IMG/VR virus record: IMGVR_UViG_3300027898_000022
Span: 1-36,932 of that record
From: a virus
DNA: 36,932 bases
Direction: 5' to 3' (one strand)
The notes beneath the pieces are model-generated. The model made no database searches, was not told the origin of the DNA, and was given only the letters and a program-made list of their open reading frames with translations. Both the position numbers and the translations under genes were made by a program. Below are positions 243 through 27,648 of this stretch, piece after piece. Positions within the stretch are counted from its first letter, which is position 1. Every line of letters begins with the position of its first letter.

Positions 243-523
243 TACCTTAAAAGGTCTTGACAATATATAGGGCTCCCTACCGGTCGCCCCTGCGGTGCGT
301 GAGTCGCCCCTCTCAGGTCTGAGCCTGGCGCGTATACCTTACTGGTGTTAATATACGAATGACAAGGTTTAGAATCTCTCTATATAAACTTTTTTTATAC
401 CCATGTACGATTTTACTTGACAACCTTAGAAATATATGGTATAATATATATATAAGGTATTAATTATTCCTTTCTTGTTTGTTCATTTGTTGAAATAGGT
501 ACTAACGTACCTTACATACCTTA
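243..523. repeat. cluster of TACCTTA/TAAGGTA heptamers around the late promoter
   Basis: TACCTTA occurs at 243-249, 335-341, 508-514 and 517-523, and its complement TAAGGTA at 453-459 just after the -10 box. The copy at 243 is part of ACCTT-AA-AAGGT. One more copy lies at 33060-33066, just downstream of the leftward promoter. About one copy per 8 kb (both strands) would be expected by chance. They could be operator sites for a phage regulator or simply AT-rich leader sequence; no binding protein is identifiable here. Confidence 0.35.
417..445 (+). promoter_or_regulatory. consensus sigma70-type promoter of the late operon
   Basis: The -35 box TTGACA (417-422) and -10 box TATAAT (440-445) are both perfect and are separated by exactly 17 bases. 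The 18-mer TACGATTTTACTTGACAA (406-423), which contains the -35 box, recurs exactly at the leftward promoter near 33074-33113. Downstream of the -10, ATATATATAAGGTA is also shared between the two. Transcription should start near 452 and read into the virion genes from 607. Recognition by host RNA polymerase is inferred from the match to consensus. Confidence 0.9.
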
Positions 524-10600: not shown

Positions 10601-11833
10601 ATGCCTCAAATCCCATTAGGAAGACAAGCATATCAAAGAGACTTTGCTAATGAGATTGAAATTCAATGTCTAAATCGTTTCTTTGAAACTAACCCCACAA
10701 ACCCTGAAGACCAAGTCTCACTCTTGGCTCGACCCGGTAGTACTCCTTTGGTGACTACAAGTGATGTCGGCCTAGTCCGTGGCTTCTATAGCCATCCGGG
10801 TTTCTTTAATGGTGATCTATTTTTTGTTACTGGTACGAGTATGTATCGGTATACTACGACAGGTACGTTGATACCTATTTCGAGTTATATCGAAAACCAA
10901 GGACAGGTCTCAATGACCTTCATGATTGGTGCAGGGTATGAGTATCTCTTTATCACTGACGGGACACTCCTACAGTACTATAAAGGTGGTGTCAAAGGTA
11001 CTAGCGTTCTAACCGTTACAGGAAGTATCACCAACCAAGTCATACAGATTGGGGCGAACTATTACACATGGGGAACATCCCCTCACGGTGTCGCTGCCGG
11101 TACTGCTGCCAGCCCTTGGGTCGCAACGCTTGGCGGTACTACGGCGCAAAGCCTTCAAAACATGGTAAATCTGTTATCATTTACAGGTGCTCTGGGGACT
11201 GATTTTTCGAGTAATCTCGGTGGTCAAAATCCTGATGTTACTGCTGTGGTCTCAGGTAATACGATTGTATTGACGAGTAAGTCAGACTTATCTTCGGCTA
11301 ACTCAATTGCTACTACGGTGTACTCTGGTACAGGTATGGCATTTGGTACGACTACGATTACTGGTGCTGGTGTACATGTCCTGTATGGTATCGAGATGCC
11401 TAACGGACTTCCAGTCAAGAGTTGTGCCAGTCTTGCTAGCCATGTCCTTCTGAGTATCACGGGAAGTAATCAATTTTACTTTCTACGTCCCGGAAGCCTT
11501 GTAGTAGACCCGCTGGACTTCGCAACTGCGGAGAGTCAGCCTGACGTACTTCAAGACCTTGTAACCGTAGGTGATACTGTCTGGATGATTGGTGAAGGAC
11601 ACACAGAGGCTTGGTACGCTACTGGAGATAGTCTATCGCCTTTTCAACCTACACAAGGACGTGTCTATGATCGTGGTGCCGTTCCTGGTACTGCAGTCAA
11701 AGTAAAAGACGAAGTCATCATTGTAGGGTTTGACGGTATCGTATATAGTATCGGACGTGGAGTCCAACGTATTTCACATCACGGTATTGAAGAGCGTATC
11801 AGAACACAACTCAAAAGAGAGTCAGGAACTTAG
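10601..11833 (+). CDS. tail plug protein, P22 gp10-like, N-terminal part (split gene)
   Basis: The first residues (LGRQAYQRDFANEIEIQCLNRFFETNP, then SLLARPGSTPL) and the later segment LVTVGDTVWMIGEGHTEAWYATGD with GVQRISHHGIEERIR are conserved in P22 gp10-type packaged-DNA stabilisation (plug) proteins. In the family, as I know it, the chain continues after the HGIEERIR segment into a second beta-rich half with GHxFYV and TWVYD motifs. Here the frame stops at residue 410 and that second half appears 2.2 kb downstream, in the gene at 14024. Residues about 140-245 look like an inserted beta domain. AAAAG precedes the ATG. Confidence 0.8.
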   Translation: MPQIPLGRQAYQRDFANEIEIQCLNRFFETNPTNPEDQVSLLARPGSTPLVTTSDVGLVRGFYSHPGFFNGDLFFVTGTSMYRYTTTGTLIPISSYIENQGQVSMTFMIGAGYEYLFITDGTLLQYYKGGVKGTSVLTVTGSITNQVIQIGANYYTWGTSPHGVAAGTAASPWVATLGGTTAQSLQNMVNLLSFTGALGTDFSSNLGGQNPDVTAVVSGNTIVLTSKSDLSSANSIATTVYSGTGMAFGTTTITGAGVHVLYGIEMPNGLPVKSCASLASHVLLSITGSNQFYFLRPGSLVVDPLDFATAESQPDVLQDLVTVGDTVWMIGEGHTEAWYATGDSLSPFQPTQGRVYDRGAVPGTAVKVKDEVIIVGFDGIVYSIGRGVQRISHHGIEERIRTQLKRESGT

Positions 11834-11869: not shown

Positions 11870-13987
11870 ATGGCAACACTTTTCATGGATAATGGAGAAA
11901 TTTACGGTGTCTCCGCTGCTGCCTTGAATGGTATGTATGCTCAAGTTTCTTCTGATATTACTACAGGTATCGTTGCTAATAAAATATGCTTTACCTTAAA
12001 TGGTGGGGATATTCTCCGTAAAGTCCTCCCTGCTACTTATACTAACCTGTTTACAGGGTTTCGTTGGTACGTAACCAGCCTTCCTAGTACGACAGGTCAG
12101 GGTCCTTTTGTTGATATTCGTGATACGAATAATAATACTCTAGGGCGTATCTACATTGATACGACTGGCCGTTTAAACGTTACTAATAGTGCTGGTGCTA
12201 TTGTTGCTACGAGTACATCTCCTGTTATTACAGCGAGTACGTGGCATTACATCGAGATGAACTGGCAGTTATCTAGTACATCTGGGTATCTTGAAGTTCG
12301 CATTGATGACTCGTCTACGCCATGTCTTGTCTATTCAGGTGCGTTTGATAGTACGACTCCTATTGCTCAGGTAGCATATGGTAGTAATACTACGACTTCA
12401 TCTTTGACAGATATGCACGTCTGGGATACAACTGGGACGCGGAATACCACATTTATTGGTGACTTTCAGGTGGCTGTTCTTTGGCCTGTCACAGACGTAC
12501 AAACAGGATGGACGCCTAATTATCGTAAGAAGATTGGCAACGGTATTGGTTCTTTCACCAACGGTGTCCTCGCTTTTGCTGATAACCCACGGCTTAATCC
12601 CGGTAGCGGTGATTATACTATCGAGAGCTTTTTCAGATTTACGTCATTACCTACGAGTAATAACCGTGTACCTTTGATTGCTAAATGGTGTGAAGTCAAC
12701 GCCAACCAACGTAGCTTTGAGTTGAGCCTATGTGGTCCGGGCCTGAATGGTGGCAATATCGAGTTCCGTATTAGTACTGATGGTACTGCTAATACGACTC
12801 AAACACTCTTTAGCCAACCCTATACATTTAATCCGGGGCAATGGTATCACATCGCAGTCTCCAGAGCATCTGGTCAGACTATGTTGTTTATCAATGGTGT
12901 TCTCCAGAACGTACCCGTGACAGACGTGAATACGTATTACGCATGCACGTGGCCTATTGTCATTGGCGGTGGTACTGTCAGTTTTACTGGTAGTGCAGAA
13001 TATGCTGGTCTAAACAGCCAGTTCATCGGCTACATGGACGAGACACGTTATACTACAGCGGCTAGGTATACGACTAATTTCACACCTACTACGGTACCGT
13101 TTGGTCGTAATCTCGCTAACGACTCTCTCTGGAACAACGTCGTACTTCTTCTCGGGTACGAGTCTGCTCCTCAAGATGAGAGTCAGTATAATGAGACTCC
13201 GTATGCTCCGTACAATAATACGGTGATGCCTACGTCTTATCTTCCAGATGATGGTATAGGACAGTGGAGTGCCATAGGTGCTGAGGATACAGAAGCGTTT
13301 CTGGCTCCTCGTGATGATACATATATTTCGGCTACATTGTCTCGTGCTACTAATATTCTGACGTTGGGTGGTAACCCTACGGATGGTCAGACAGTAACGA
13401 TTGGTAGCCAAGTCTACACGTTTAAGACTGCATTGACTACAGGGTATCAAGTCCTGATTGGTGCGAGTATATCTGCAAGCCTCCATAATCTTGCTCAGGC
13501 AATCAATGGCGGTACAGGTGCAGGGACGTTATACAGTTCCGATATTGCTGCTAATCCTAATGTACAGAGTCAAGAACTCCCGTCTCCTCAGATGGAAATC
13601 TTGGCTAACACAGCGGGTAGTGCAGGTAATAGTATCGGTCCATGTAGCACGAATATCCCGAGTTCGGTATGGGCTACTACCAATCTTTCAGGTGGTGCTG
13701 ACATCCCCGGACCAAGTAGCTTCAAGCTTTCTCGGTTGCCTATTGGTATTACGATTGTTCGTAGTGTCATGGCAGTAACCCGAGCATTCAAGACTGAGGC
13801 TGGTCCTGCTAAAATGAAGACTAACTTCGTAGGTGCAGGTGGTACGATTACTCAAGGACCTGAGATTGCACTCGCAGTCAATCCGACTTATAACACAGCC
13901 GTCTTCGAGCTTGACCCCGATACGGGAACTGCTATTACTCCAGCAACTCTAACATCGGGGCAGATTCAATTCAATAGGACTGTCTAG
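11870..13987 (+). CDS. LamG/concanavalin-like tail protein, candidate receptor binder (705 aa)
   Basis: Residues about 15-215 and 235-410 look like two LamG/concanavalin-type beta-sandwich domains; the second has the typical GQWYHIAVSRASGQTMLFINGVLQ followed by GYMDETRYTTAARYTTNFTPT. Residues about 490-610 carry a third domain of a kind seen in phage tail proteins (DGQTVTIGSQVYTFK ... SAGNSIGP ... TTNLSGGAD). LamG domains bind glycans or proteins, so attachment to the host surface is likely but inferred. The gene lies between the two parts of the plug gene and is flanked on both sides by near-identical hairpin cassettes, suggesting later insertion. Confidence 0.82.
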   Translation: MATLFMDNGEIYGVSAAALNGMYAQVSSDITTGIVANKICFTLNGGDILRKVLPATYTNLFTGFRWYVTSLPSTTGQGPFVDIRDTNNNTLGRIYIDTTGRLNVTNSAGAIVATSTSPVITASTWHYIEMNWQLSSTSGYLEVRIDDSSTPCLVYSGAFDSTTPIAQVAYGSNTTTSSLTDMHVWDTTGTRNTTFIGDFQVAVLWPVTDVQTGWTPNYRKKIGNGIGSFTNGVLAFADNPRLNPGSGDYTIESFFRFTSLPTSNNRVPLIAKWCEVNANQRSFELSLCGPGLNGGNIEFRISTDGTANTTQTLFSQPYTFNPGQWYHIAVSRASGQTMLFINGVLQNVPVTDVNTYYACTWPIVIGGGTVSFTGSAEYAGLNSQFIGYMDETRYTTAARYTTNFTPTTVPFGRNLANDSLWNNVVLLLGYESAPQDESQYNETPYAPYNNTVMPTSYLPDDGIGQWSAIGAEDTEAFLAPRDDTYISATLSRATNILTLGGNPTDGQTVTIGSQVYTFKTALTTGYQVLIGASISASLHNLAQAINGGTGAGTLYSSDIAANPNVQSQELPSPQMEILANTAGSAGNSIGPCSTNIPSSVWATTNLSGGADIPGPSSFKLSRLPIGITIVRSVMAVTRAFKTEAGPAKMKTNFVGAGGTITQGPEIALAVNPTYNTAVFELDPDTGTAITPATLTSGQIQFNRTV

Positions 13988-14023: not shown

Positions 14024-14911
14024 ATGAGTGGAGTATCTGATCTAACACACGGTACTCCGGTTACACAAGGGGGGATGTATTATCTTGGACAAGGTGGTAC
14101 ATCTCCTAGTGTAGCACAAGCACCGTTACTGGCAGCAGTACGAACTACACCAGTACATGAAATTCGTGTATCACAAACACCAATCATGGCTGCTTATATA
14201 CCTCGTGTTGCTAAGACAGTAAAACTAAATCAGACAGCCTTACTAGGCTTGGTATCAGGAGCAAATGACTTGTCAGTCGATGTAACACAAGGAGCCCTGC
14301 TGATTGGTTTCAAATCAGGTATCCCTACTCAGACACGAAATCGTTCATGGACTTTTGACTTTGACGGACATACATTCTATGTTCTTGATCTTGGTCCAGA
14401 AGGTACTTGGGTTTATGATCAAGTAACCCAACAGTGGTGTAAATTTGAAACACCCGGCTTTGGCCAATGGAATATGATTAACGGATTTGACTGGGAGTCA
14501 GGCCGTAAGATCATTGGTGGTGATGCGATCTATAGTAAGATTTATTATATGGACCCAACGAGCCATCTTGATGATGGATTTCGTAGCGTCATCTACACGG
14601 TTACAGGTGGTTTACCATCTCGGAGTAGGACAGGAAAAAGCGTAGACTCAGTACGTCTTGCTGCTAGTGTTGGTAATCTCACTGATCCGACACAACCTAT
14701 GCCTACTATTAGTCTTCGCTTTAGTGATAACTATGGAGGAACGTGGAGCCAAGAATACCCATTCGCCTTACAGGCAGGAAATTACGATCAAAGAGTTGAA
14801 TGGAATAGTCTCGGTCAAATGAAGATACCCGGACGAGTCTTTGAATTTACTACAACCGGTGGTCTGGTTCACATTGATGGAGCAGATGCACAAATAGACG
14901 GGCAGGAATAG
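14024..14911 (+). CDS. tail plug protein, P22 gp10-like C-terminal part with VTQ-repeat N-terminus
   Basis: Residues about 95-290 resemble the second half of gp10-type plug proteins: SWTFDFDGHTFYVLDL, EGTWVYDQVTQQWCKF, then SLRFSDNYGGTWSQE and RVFEFTTTGGLVHIDG at the end. The first 95 residues differ: they hold repeated units of the type SVAQAPLLAAVR, VSQTPIMAAYIP, LNQTALLGLVSG and VTQGALLIGF, a short repeat found in phage tail proteins. The protein may work together with the 410-aa product as a two-piece plug, or be a separate tail protein with a shared domain. ATG follows AAGGATTACTAA in a hairpin cassette. Confidence 0.75.
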   Translation: MSGVSDLTHGTPVTQGGMYYLGQGGTSPSVAQAPLLAAVRTTPVHEIRVSQTPIMAAYIPRVAKTVKLNQTALLGLVSGANDLSVDVTQGALLIGFKSGIPTQTRNRSWTFDFDGHTFYVLDLGPEGTWVYDQVTQQWCKFETPGFGQWNMINGFDWESGRKIIGGDAIYSKIYYMDPTSHLDDGFRSVIYTVTGGLPSRSRTGKSVDSVRLAASVGNLTDPTQPMPTISLRFSDNYGGTWSQEYPFALQAGNYDQRVEWNSLGQMKIPGRVFEFTTTGGLVHIDGADAQIDGQE

Positions 14912-24463: not shown

Positions 24464-24785
24464 TAGGACATGGGGAGAATATATTGCCGATAAGGTCACA
24501 GATACTATTGGTAGCTGGAGATTCATTATATGGCAAAGTACTATCCTCTCAGCATGGTTGATATATAACACAGCCTTCCGTGCCTTTGATCCTTATCCTT
24601 ATATTCTACTCAACCTTGTCTTATCATTCCAAGCAGCTTATGCTGCTCCGTTTATCATGATGAGTCAAAACAGAAAAGACCAAGTAGATAGAAATATTAT
24701 CAATACTGATCTAGACATCGATGAAGATACTAATAAAGAACTTCACGAGATACATCATCAACTTGATTTGTTTCTGCACAAATAA
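24456..24785 (+). CDS. DUF1003-like membrane protein (109 aa)
   Basis: The segment ADKVTDTIGSWRFIIWQST, two membrane spans, and the signature FDPYPYILLNLVLSFQAAYAAPFIMMSQNR match the DUF1003 family of bacterial inner-membrane proteins, whose function is not established. The product is shorter than usual bacterial members and consists of just the conserved core plus an acidic helical tail (about 75-109). It is the last gene of the late operon and its stop lies in the bidirectional terminator. ATG 24456 overlaps the upstream stop; ATG 24450 is an alternative. Confidence 0.8.
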   Translation: MDNRTWGEYIADKVTDTIGSWRFIIWQSTILSAWLIYNTAFRAFDPYPYILLNLVLSFQAAYAAPFIMMSQNRKDQVDRNIINTDLDIDEDTNKELHEIHHQLDLFLHK

Positions 24786-24837
24786 AAATACCCCGCTAGA
24801 GGAACTCACACGAGAACTTCTAGCGGGGTATTTTTTT
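24784..24837. terminator. bidirectional terminator between the convergent operons
   Basis: Bases 24784-24800 pair perfectly with 24819-24835 (17 bp) around an 18-nt loop. The stem begins AAAAATACCCCGC and ends GGGGTATTTTTTT, so both strands give a GC-rich hairpin followed by a T tract. It sits exactly between the rightward late operon and the leftward replication operon and overlaps the stop of the DUF1003 gene by two bases. Confidence 0.93.
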
Positions 24838-25011
24838 AAGCCCTCGACCGGATACTCCAGTCCTTATCTTACTTATCTGCTCCCGCACGGGTAGGAGACT
24901 TATGAAGGGTTGACTCGTCCTTCACCACACCAATGGTTAAGGTTGACGCTAACAGGAGTAGGGTATCTGAAACACAATCCACCGTAGAAGAAACAATCCC
25001 TACAGTAAACC
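24838..25011. other. 3' trailer of the leftward operon, no gene seen
   Basis: These 174 bases between the terminator and the RNR stop have no frame with support in either direction. A frame at 24900-25148 (-) is mostly a shadow of RNR codons. They probably form the 3' untranslated end of the leftward transcript. Confidence 0.5.
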
Positions 25012-25896
25012 CTAACCAATACTATTGATGTCACAGGTTCCGCCAGTACAGGCGAGTTCTTGGCTACCTGTGGTTGTGTCTTCGGTTTCGTACTCACTGA
25101 GGTGGCTCCACTCGATGGTGGGGTTTCCGTGGGCTTGGGTGAACGCATCGTATTCTTTCTTTGTCAGTTCTTGATACGGGGCTTGCTTGTAGTTACCTTC
25201 ATCCGTAGGGAAGAAGGCTACACCTGAAAGGATGTCAAAGTTTCGATACACCCAAGAAGCCACATCAAGTACATTGTCATCAGTAAAATAGATACTAGCA
25301 CTAGGCTTGTGTTCACACCAATGATCTTGTAGAGTCTTCCAAAGTTCAAGACTTTGGACCCCGTCAAGGTCGTGACGAGTAACTGCTTTTTCTGGGGCTT
25401 CCATAGGAAAATAGAAAATGGTTGTCGTGCTTTCTTTTCCAAGTGCCGGTTCATAATATACCCCCGAATCTTTCAAGAATTGAGTCAGAGGGTCTTTGTT
25501 ATCAGCACGGATAGTACGAAGGTAATACCGACTGTAACGAGGGTGTAGACCCGATGCTGAGTCAACCAATTGAGATACGGTACCACTTGGTTTGACACAA
25601 GTGATAGCAGTTGATTGGTTAATCCCGAGACGTACTGCCCAAACTTTGTTAACTTCAATAGCATGATTACGTAATCCTTCTAAGTTTTCTGGTGTTAATA
25701 CAGAGAGGTTATCACAGATACCTGTGAGACTTACGCCTAACAACCGCTCTTCTTCACAGTTCTTCTGCCAAATCTTCCTTAGGTATCGGAAGTCGGTAAA
25801 GGTAGATTGTATTGTTCCGAGGATTGTTGCCAATCCAACCTTTTTCTTAAGAGACTCAAAAGTGTCTCCGTCTCGGACAACAACCTCAGTAAGATT
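25012..25896 (-). CDS. nrdJ: class II ribonucleotide reductase, exon 2
   Basis: Codes for residues 346-639, beginning NLTEVVVRDGD, which continues QFC of exon 1 as QFC-NLTEVV in the intact family sequence. The barrel segments GVSLTGICDNL and VKPSGTVSQLVDSASGLHPRYSRYYLRTIRAD are conserved in class II reductases. The C-terminal pair C628-x4-C633 (LACTGGTCDI) matches the Cys731/Cys736 redox pair that reloads the active site. A TTG at 25899 could start translation of the exon alone, but that would give a non-functional fragment; splicing is the better reading. Total length is about 100 aa below the Lactobacillus enzyme. Confidence 0.93.
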   Translation of the reverse strand, partial: NLTEVVVRDGDTFESLKKKVGLATILGTIQSTFTDFRYLRKIWQKNCEEERLLGVSLTGICDNLSVLTPENLEGLRNHAIEVNKVWAVRLGINQSTAITCVKPSGTVSQLVDSASGLHPRYSRYYLRTIRADNKDPLTQFLKDSGVYYEPALGKESTTTIFYFPMEAPEKAVTRHDLDGVQSLELWKTLQDHWCEHKPSASIYFTDDNVLDVASWVYRNFDILSGVAFFPTDEGNYKQAPYQELTKKEYDAFTQAHGNPTIEWSHLSEYETEDTTTGSQELACTGGTCDINSIG

Positions 25897-25918
25897 CAAT
25901 TATGTTAAACGAAGTTCG

Positions 25919-26368
25919 TTAATCTTCGCCAAAGAGTTCTAATATTCGTGATGCAAACAAAAGAAGTTGTTCTTTAGAAGCACTTGCTTTCATTTGATTA
26001 GCCAAATGACTTATGACTTGAATATTAGAGACGATGTAGCCTTTATTATTATCAACTCTGTCTAACGCAGGTGAATTAGGCTTACCTCCCGGGGAACCTG
26101 TATGGACCGTAAGAGGTATATCAAGATAAGGACATTTTTCTGGTATCATAATATTTTCTGGTCTAATAGCAAATTCAAGACCAGATTTTTTACAACGATT
26201 TCTAGCTCTATCCCAAAGTTTATACTCTGGCGTATTCCAAGCTTTTACTCGTTCAGAATTACATTTATTACACAGTGTAACTGTTTTAGAAGTTTTAGGA
26301 TAAACGACACCGCAATTAGTGCATTCTCTTTCAGATTCAGTTACATAATATCCTTGTCTATTTAACAT
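25919..26368 (-). CDS. intron-encoded HNH homing endonuclease (149 aa)
   Basis: The product has two N-terminal Cys pairs (C16-C19, C33-C36), a zinc ribbon likely to bind DNA, and the HNH-type core with CPYLDIPL, then NSPALDRVDNNKGYIVSNIQVIS and ANQMK. It should cut intron-less RNR alleles and spread the intron. AAGGAAAGAAG precedes the ATG, but part of the AAGG lies in the 3' arm of the P9 hairpin, so its translation may be limited on the unspliced transcript. The gene stops 22 bases before the 3' splice site. A related endonuclease lies at 35503. Confidence 0.9.
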   Translation of the reverse strand: MLNRQGYYVTESERECTNCGVVYPKTSKTVTLCNKCNSERVKAWNTPEYKLWDRARNRCKKSGLEFAIRPENIMIPEKCPYLDIPLTVHTGSPGGKPNSPALDRVDNNKGYIVSNIQVISHLANQMKASASKEQLLLFASRILELFGED

Positions 26369-26490
26369 CTTCTTTCCTTATGTTTCCATAAGGTTCGGAC
26401 TATATCATCATCTTTCAATTAAGAAAGAGTCGGGCGCTTCCACTCACTTGAGTGTACTCCTTGCGGATAGTCTCTGAACCTTCTATACAT

Positions 26491-26519
26491 ATTATACCAT
26501 GTTTTGCAACATTTGTCAA
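26491..26519 (-). promoter_or_regulatory. consensus sigma70-type promoter inside the group I intron
   Basis: On the minus strand TTGACA (26514-26519), a 17-base spacer and TATAAT (26491-26496) form a perfect consensus, with TACTTGACAA and TATAATATGTATAGAAGG close to the two operon promoters. It lies in the core of the intron, upstream of P7, and would yield a transcript for the HNH gene and RNR exon 2 without exon 1. Intron-internal promoters for homing enzymes are known from T4; its use here is inferred. Confidence 0.82.
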
Positions 26520-26613
26520 GTACAAAATTGTATAGCTTGGCTGCTGATTACCATAGCTTTCACCTTAGGCTTCCCAGCAATTCACCCGATTTTACTTCTG
26601 CTATCTTTAGTTA

Positions 26614-27648
26614 ACAGAATTGATAGGGACGGAGGATAATTTCGCTACACGGGTTTGTACCGAAGTCAGGAGTCGGATCACGTCGTCCATTCCTTGCAGC
26701 AATTCGCTGAGCCGCATACCGTGAAAAAATTCCGGGCTCTCCTGACTTGCTGTCATACAACTCCTTCCACTTTTTCATAAAAAAACCTACGTCTGGTTTA
26801 CGACGATTATACACGGCTGAGTTGTTAGCCAAGGCACGATATCCATGACGTTTAGTCTCAACATCGTCCCACCAGACACCAGTCTTACATGTGCTCATAC
26901 GATCATCGGTGACATCGAAGAGGCTAATCAAGGCGCTGCGGCGTACACCCCCTACCACAACGACGTCACCGATCTTGCACATCAAATCATGACATTCTAG
27001 CGAAGAGAGTCTACGGCCTGACGCAACCTTAAACGTGTTAACACAGAATCGAAACAAGTCGTCCAAAGGCTCGGGTCCAGAAGCTCGGCCTCCAAACGTC
27101 TTAAGTCGAGCCCCTGCAGGTCGAAGTCGAGAAAGGTCCCATCGGGGAGTCTGACCAATAGACAGTAGGCTGATAAGTTCCCTAAACCCTCGGGCCCATC
27201 CTTCTTTGCTATCTGCCACACTAATGGTTGTGTCTGTTTCTGTAAACTCTTCGGCAATGACGGGGAGTTGTTTAACATATTGTTCCTCTACTGAAAATCC
27301 GATACCTGTACCACACATGAGAATATACATTGTCTCATCGAAGCTACGTAAGTTATCGATAGGAAGGTATGCACAGTTATACGCGGGGACATGACAACGA
27401 TCCAATGCTGGACCAGCCGTCATCAATGCCCTCATGGATGGCATGACTTCTAGGTTATAAATCGCATTATAAATATCATGACGAATATGACTATCATGAT
27501 CCGAAAAAGCTGTAGCTGTATCATAATATTCTACAAGACGTTCTACAGTTTCATCCCAATCTTCACGGCGATTTTCTTTATCCAACCATCGAGCATACCT
27601 CGATTTATAAATGATCTCTTGGTAGGGTGTTTTAAGCGGATGGTTCAT
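26614..27648 (-). CDS. nrdJ: class II (B12-dependent, monomeric) ribonucleotide reductase, exon 1
   Basis: Codes for residues 1-345 of a 639-aa enzyme that reduces ribonucleoside triphosphates to deoxy forms using adenosylcobalamin. The start (YQEIIYKSRYARWLD) and FNSVEEQYVKQLP-like region resemble the monomeric RTPR type known from Lactobacillus leichmannii. Active-site parts seen: YNCAY (C92, equivalent of Cys119), and NPCSE with N332, C334 and E336 (equivalents of Asn406, Cys408 and Glu410). C345 is 11 residues after C334, matching Cys419. The exon ends on this TGT codon; the frame hits TAA at once in the intron. The start overlaps the muramidase gene by 17 bases. Confidence 0.93.

Follow-up and report, generated by a model that had tools for sequence, protein, structure and literature searches.

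The class II ribonucleotide reductase (RNR) gene nrdJ of the viral genome studied here (IMG/VR record IMGVR_UViG_3300027898_000022; the whole analysed stretch of 36,932 nt is called the window) very probably carries a mobile group I intron of subgroup IA, which would encode an HNH-type homing endonuclease and splice at the codon equivalent to Cys419 of the reductase. The fold of this intron, its splice sites, the reading frames, relatives at the same position and an incongruence among the trees are all visible in the sequences. A preliminary description of the window had correctly recognized the intron and its splice sites, but was incomplete as it contained neither the 149-aa endonuclease ORF within the intron nor the putative promoter of this ORF. 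The intron-encoded endonuclease, omitted there, is the best explanation for the intron residing at precisely this codon.

The Interrupted nrdJ Gene and its Intron

On the minus strand, nrdJ is split into two pieces (27648-25012; Table 1). The record also includes genes for terminase, portal, capsid, DNA ejection, endolysin and DNA polymerase. If unspliced, exon 1 reads ...IILRPYQFC and is followed immediately by a stop codon. Joining the exons at 26614|25896 yields an open frame with a coding sequence of 1035 + 885 = 1920 nt for 639 aa, in which QFC-NLTEVV is restored across the junction. The joined product matches TIGR02505 (adenosylcobalamin-dependent ribonucleoside-triphosphate reductase) with an E-value of 3e-85 and a score of 286.8, which is below the curated cut-off of 340.05. 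As intact phage NrdJ relatives also score below this cut-off, the product is referred to as RTPR-like phage NrdJ. The preliminary description had equated C334 and C345 with Cys408 and Cys419 and had proposed aligning the joined protein with monomeric class II reductases. The reductase of L. leichmannii (RTPR, 1l1l) aligns with C92, C334 and C345 on its Cys119, Cys408 and Cys419, and the redox/thiyl cysteines 119/408/419 as well as the C-terminal cysteine pair of monomeric class II RNR (CxxxxC tail) are all present. As C345 falls on Cys419, the splice junction lies exactly 3′ of the Cys419-equivalent codon. The phage form shares its family with the L. leichmannii enzyme, but is shorter in addition to its score under the cut-off. 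The interrupted gene encodes a B12-type, class II ribonucleotide reductase of the monomeric form.

The identity of the interrupting sequence as a group I intron within nrdJ is confirmed at the sequence level. A covariance-model search, another check proposed earlier, accepted the fold: Rfam RF00028 matches 26623-26376 (minus strand) over all 253 model positions with 100.3 bits (E = 4.9e-25; cut-off 50). The minimum-energy fold yields P1, P3-P6, P8 and P9, and addition of P7 completes the core, which beats 200 of 200 shuffled sequences (z = -4.05). Among 26 same-position introns the structure holds in 94.3% of the pair cells and 37 pairs are changed on both sides, whereas sliding the partners as a control leaves a pairing of only 33-44%. 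P1 with its U.G pair, P7, P9 with a GNRA loop and the terminal G, all noticed earlier from the letters alone, are borne out by the Rfam match, the covariation and the relatives at the same position. The usual criterion for subgroup IA is the presence of P7.1 and P7.2 between P7 and P3′. Both hairpins can be recognized in the sequence, which places the intron in this subgroup.

Exon 1 ends with ...CAATTCTGT, the intron starts with TAACTAAAGATAGCAGAA and ends with ...CATAATTG, its last base being G, and exon 2 starts with AATCTTACTGAG. Once transcribed, the ribozyme would fold and a bound guanosine would attack after the Cys419-equivalent codon, at the U.G pair of P1. Exon 1 would then be ligated to the AAU of exon 2, aided by P10 and the terminal G, and the active-site sequence would be restored. 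The first intron codon is an in-frame UAA, which is expected to halt ribosomes at the splice site. It had also been argued that loss of the intron by imprecise deletion would be lethal. Such reasoning is customary where an active site is interrupted; the phage does not necessarily depend on this RNR.

Table 1. Features of the interrupted nrdJ gene and its intron (window coordinates).
Feature	Coordinates	Strand	Basis or remark
nrdJ exon 1	26614..27648	-	345 codons, ATG start; TIGR02505 RTPR match over joined protein
Last exon-1 codon TGT, Cys419 equivalent	26616-26614	-	Alignment to 1l1l
nrdJ exon 2	25012..25896	-	294 codons + stop; C-terminal redox pair CTGGTC
Group I intron, 717 nt, subgroup IA architecture	25897..26613	-	RF00028, covariation, same boundaries in 33 other loci
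Internal guide GCAGAA	26596..26601	-	Pairs with exon TTCTGT (26619-26614); U.G at 5′ splice site
P10 5′ strand, intron AAGAT	26603..26607	-	Pairs with exon-2 ATCTT (25895-25891)
P3 5′ strand	26583..26589	-	Pairs with 26436-26430; Rfam match, fold, covariation
P7 5′ strand GACTA, G-binding helix	26468..26472	-	Pairs with TAGTC 26402-26398; invariant in 26 sequences
P7.1 and P7.2 hairpins between P7 and P3′	26441..26467	-	All 8 pairs changed on both sides
P9 hairpin CCUUAUG-GAAA-CAUAAGG, GAAA (GNRA) loop	26376..26393	-	Rfam match, covariation
Intron ORF, 149 aa, probable homing endonuclease	25919..26368	-	PHROG 3322, AlphaFold, PacI match
Perfect sigma-70-type consensus TTGACA-N17-TATAAT	26491..26519	-	Within P6 insertion, upstream of endonuclease ORF

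The Probable Intron-Encoded Endonuclease and its Putative Promoter

Sequence and predicted structure indicate that the intron ORF probably encodes an HNH-type homing endonuclease. Its product comprises an N-terminal CxxC/CxxC zinc finger, followed by a putative C-terminal HNH (beta-beta-alpha-Me-like) nuclease domain. The best match among the PHROGs is the endonuclease family 3322 (E = 1.3e-32), and HNH families were matched as well. The structure closest to the AlphaFold model (pLDDT 91) is the HNH restriction endonuclease PacI (3ldy; Foldseek E = 5.5e-3, probability 1.00), aligned over 82 residues at 2.5 Å with a middling Z of 7.4 and an identity of 17%, a likeness of predicted fold. A canonical HNH histidine is not obvious in the ORF family, which instead shows an invariant LDR...N...AN.MK, and sequence searches against Pfam, NCBIfam and the PDB yielded no nuclease family. 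Relatives of the ORF are under purifying selection (dN/dS about 0.05-0.14 where dS is not saturated).

Rhizobium phage RHph_N3_13 has a homologue with an Srd-like annotation, and weak matches to Srd PHROGs exist also for the window's ORF, which could therefore be a host-takeover protein (an Srd-like sigma decoy) residing in the intron by chance. This appears very unlikely, as the endonuclease PHROGs match far better (1.3e-32 versus 1.2e-4), the predicted model has a PacI-like fold and the close relatives are associated with RNR genes and with one insertion spot. Some Srd or host sigma decoy annotations that are homologous to the HNH family (PHROG 1400 and 4592; locus L001, 2752-3198) may themselves denote endonucleases.

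As a homing endonuclease, the protein would cut intron-less nrdJ alleles near the highly conserved sequence of the Cys419 codon, and repair of the cut gene would copy the intron in. Judged from the consensus match, a promoter of its own within the P6 extension is likely to provide additional expression of the endonuclease. The window contains two perfect TTGACA-N17-TATAAT sites, while 0.11 would be expected. A match of at least 10/12 occurs in 17 of 54 intron cores, where 2.9 would be expected; most of these matches lie in P6 or 3′ of P9, and they are not independent because the sequences are related. Self-splicing, cleavage, homing and use of this promoter are what we infer from these sequences. 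The only other perfect site of the window (417-445, plus strand) shares ATGGTATAAT with the intron promoter, and this consensus is perhaps the phage's own strong promoter type.

Same-Position Relatives and Insertion Registers

The spliced RNR and the intron ORF served as queries to collect relatives, and two cultured phages, Rhizobium phage RHph_N3_13 and Roseobacter phage CRP-7, were added. Including the window, 54 distinct nrdJ loci contain a related ORF in an intron with placeable ends; L172 and L181 were excluded because their intron boundaries could not be placed. Relative to the Cys419 codon, the introns lie at +0 (34 loci), +6 (9) or +7 (11), with L178 and L180 being ambiguous between the latter two registers. 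The endonuclease-led search favours endonuclease-bearing loci, and no frequency of occupied sites was derived.

Another 33 distinct viral loci contain an intron at the identical position and with the boundaries seen in the window, which argues against chance boundaries. All 34 of these +0 loci exhibit TTCTGT before the cut, the guide sequence known from the window, G as last intron base and a restored CNL motif, so that the splice sites can, as had been claimed, be placed to the base. At the same hexamer, intron-free relatives contain TTCTGT (50), TTCTGC (24) or other sequences (6). The AAGAU/AUCUU pairing proposed earlier as P10 also finds support: across the 34 loci, intron bases preceding the guide change together with the initial codons of exon 2 (121 of 136 pairs versus 111.5 when shuffled, with none of 5000 shuffles being as high), as P10 requires. 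The remaining 20 loci have their related ORFs in introns that are inserted 6 or 7 nt further downstream. The guides of these introns differ (mostly GAGGTT; GGAGATT) and are adapted to the codons found there, AACCTT and AATCTCT. Stop codons at the junction (34/34 at +0, 11/11 at +7 and 7/9 at +6) would keep ribosomes out of the ribozyme. In L094, nrdJ is broken again near RNR residue 115, with a second RF00028 match at 1822-2067, and in L096 it is further broken near residues 91-105 and 453.

It is highly improbable, and somewhat more so than a sigma decoy, that the intron is degenerate and non-splicing and nrdJ a pseudogene in this phage. No computed result favours this idea; both exons are open with all catalytic residues kept, the core, P1, P7, P9 and P10 are intact, and so is the endonuclease ORF, whose relatives exhibit the low dN/dS mentioned above where dS could be estimated. 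Least probable of all is a gene in pieces, whose two halves would be made as separate proteins and come together with no splicing, like nrdA of phage Aeh1: the exon-1 ORF does stop right after the Cys codon and a TTG (ATG in many relatives) immediately precedes exon 2 in frame, but the nrdJ halves are separated by a complete ribozyme core, supported by covariation and with P1/P10 matching the exons, no ribosome-binding site was seen before the TTG, and the ATG that ends the intron in the +7 relatives is not in the reading frame of exon 2.

Probable Horizontal Spread and Exchange of Partners

For the presumably mobile, splicing intron, a horizontal history is suggested by the trees. In the RNR tree, the window and L083 lie apart from each other inside a clade of 24 otherwise intron-free genes, which were picked as the nearest relatives of the window. 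In the ribozyme tree, the core of the window pairs with that of L104, whose nrdJ falls outside this intron-free clade, as would be expected of horizontal arrival. Within the limits that short alignments and long branches set to such comparisons, constraining the endonucleases to one clade per register was rejected for +0 (p = 0.0013) and for +6 (p = 3e-43), while the same constraint on the +0 ribozymes was not rejected (p = 0.32); neither the +6 nor the +7 ribozymes form a single clade. These results indicate that the endonuclease changes its partner. The simplest reading of the sequences is that the intron spread horizontally by homing and that endonucleases switch both their ribozyme partner and their state, intron-borne or free.

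Co-conversion of the flanks was also considered. Only over codons 341-345 does the window share more synonymous codons with other +0 hosts (0.70) than with its own intron-free clade (0.45), a stretch too short for co-conversion to be separated from constraint by the guide sequence.

Free-Standing Relatives of the Endonuclease

Close relatives of the endonuclease were also found outside introns, directly 3′ of intact RNR genes. Seven of them follow a monomeric nrdJ (L112, L115, L124, L145, L149, L163 and L179), the two genes possibly overlapping by about 40 nt at one extreme and lying 97 nt apart at the other. Others are located 3′ of class I RNR (L118, typed as TIGR02510, L131 and L134) or of a second class II RNR type (L170). 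No group I intron was found at these free-standing endonuclease sites. In Streptomyces phages NootNoot (a Samistivirus) and Jay2Jay, a more distant relative lies 45 nt after an intron-free nrdJ. A scan of 84,980 bacterial genomes with the endonuclease profile yielded just two weak partial relatives, and thus no chromosomal source.

The intron-borne endonuclease of L156 and the free-standing one of L163 form a close pair. In the junction region, L163 reads CNLCDVV, versus CNLTEVV in L156, and the altered target of L163 may protect the carrier from its own enzyme. In L145 (1426-1485) and L149 (1017-1080), a DUF2815 RNA motif (RF03084) is located 0.6-1 kb upstream of nrdJ.

We lean slightly towards the idea that one RNR-dedicated endonuclease lineage is a lasting mobile unit, which repeatedly enters and leaves ribozymes and free-standing sites that share a target region. 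Such a shared region would account for one lineage occurring at three registers within 7 nt as well as downstream of RNR genes of both class I and class II. If true, the nrdJ loci would capture the formation of mobile introns by collaborative homing in its initial as well as its final state.

Relation to Known Phage Introns

Introns in phage RNR genes include those of Twort nrdE, T4 nrdB/nrdD and SPbeta nrdE/nrdF. Twort nrdE contains two introns near conserved residues, one of them with an HNH endonuclease. The ribozyme type, an endonuclease ORF and insertion at conserved RNR codons are common to these introns and the nrdJ intron, whose core shows distant DNA similarity to a Twort nrdE intron (78% over ~105 nt). 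The known examples, however, lie in class I or III RNR genes, and the present one in class II nrdJ.

Group I introns near active-site codons of phage RNR genes are well known (PMC3653736, PMC3984707). The searched text of one of these, a survey of 128 genomes, includes two split nrdJ genes, with that of phiYS40 consisting of two ORFs 12 nt apart, and mentions no group I intron in nrdJ (PMC3653736). Likewise, no description of such an intron was found in the open literature searched. As RNR introns and free-standing endonucleases serving neighbouring introns are already known, the single locus fits an established pattern and is of a known kind; the surrounding family is the interesting part.

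How endonuclease genes and introns first joined is an old question, for which collaborative homing is the leading idea. In the literature covered, this idea rests on two phage systems, the psbA intron of cyanophage S-PM2 with free-standing F-CphI (PMC3984707, PMC6083498) and a case of Bonocora and Shub (2009), as summarized in the same reviews. As in the nrdJ family, F-CphI is a free-standing endonuclease beside a gene with an intron at a conserved site. Unlike F-CphI, which belongs to the DHHRN family, the nrdJ endonucleases are of a different family and occur in both states and with three abutting intron registers; the nrdJ case is known from gene positions and homology. The nrdJ loci offer many natural replicates, as one endonuclease family is present in introns of all three registers and, next to the same gene, also in the free-standing state. 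Cultured members are RHph_N3_13, CRP-7, NootNoot and Jay2Jay, and dozens of other phages contain the same endonuclease family at the Cys419 spot or beside RNR genes. Annotators should be aware that an nrdJ gene that looks split in a phage record is in some cases a whole gene containing an intron.

Other Features of the Window

A second gene of the window is possibly split. The ORFs at 10601-11833 and 14024-14911 (plus strand) match the first and the second half of PHROG 578 (head closure Hc3), and a 705-aa ORF of unknown families lies between them (11870-13987, plus strand). Between converging gene blocks, a long inverted repeat (CCCCGCTAGA...TCTAGCGGGG; 24785-24838), with a run of T after it, resembles a terminator that the two blocks share; its loop is longer than the scan accepts.
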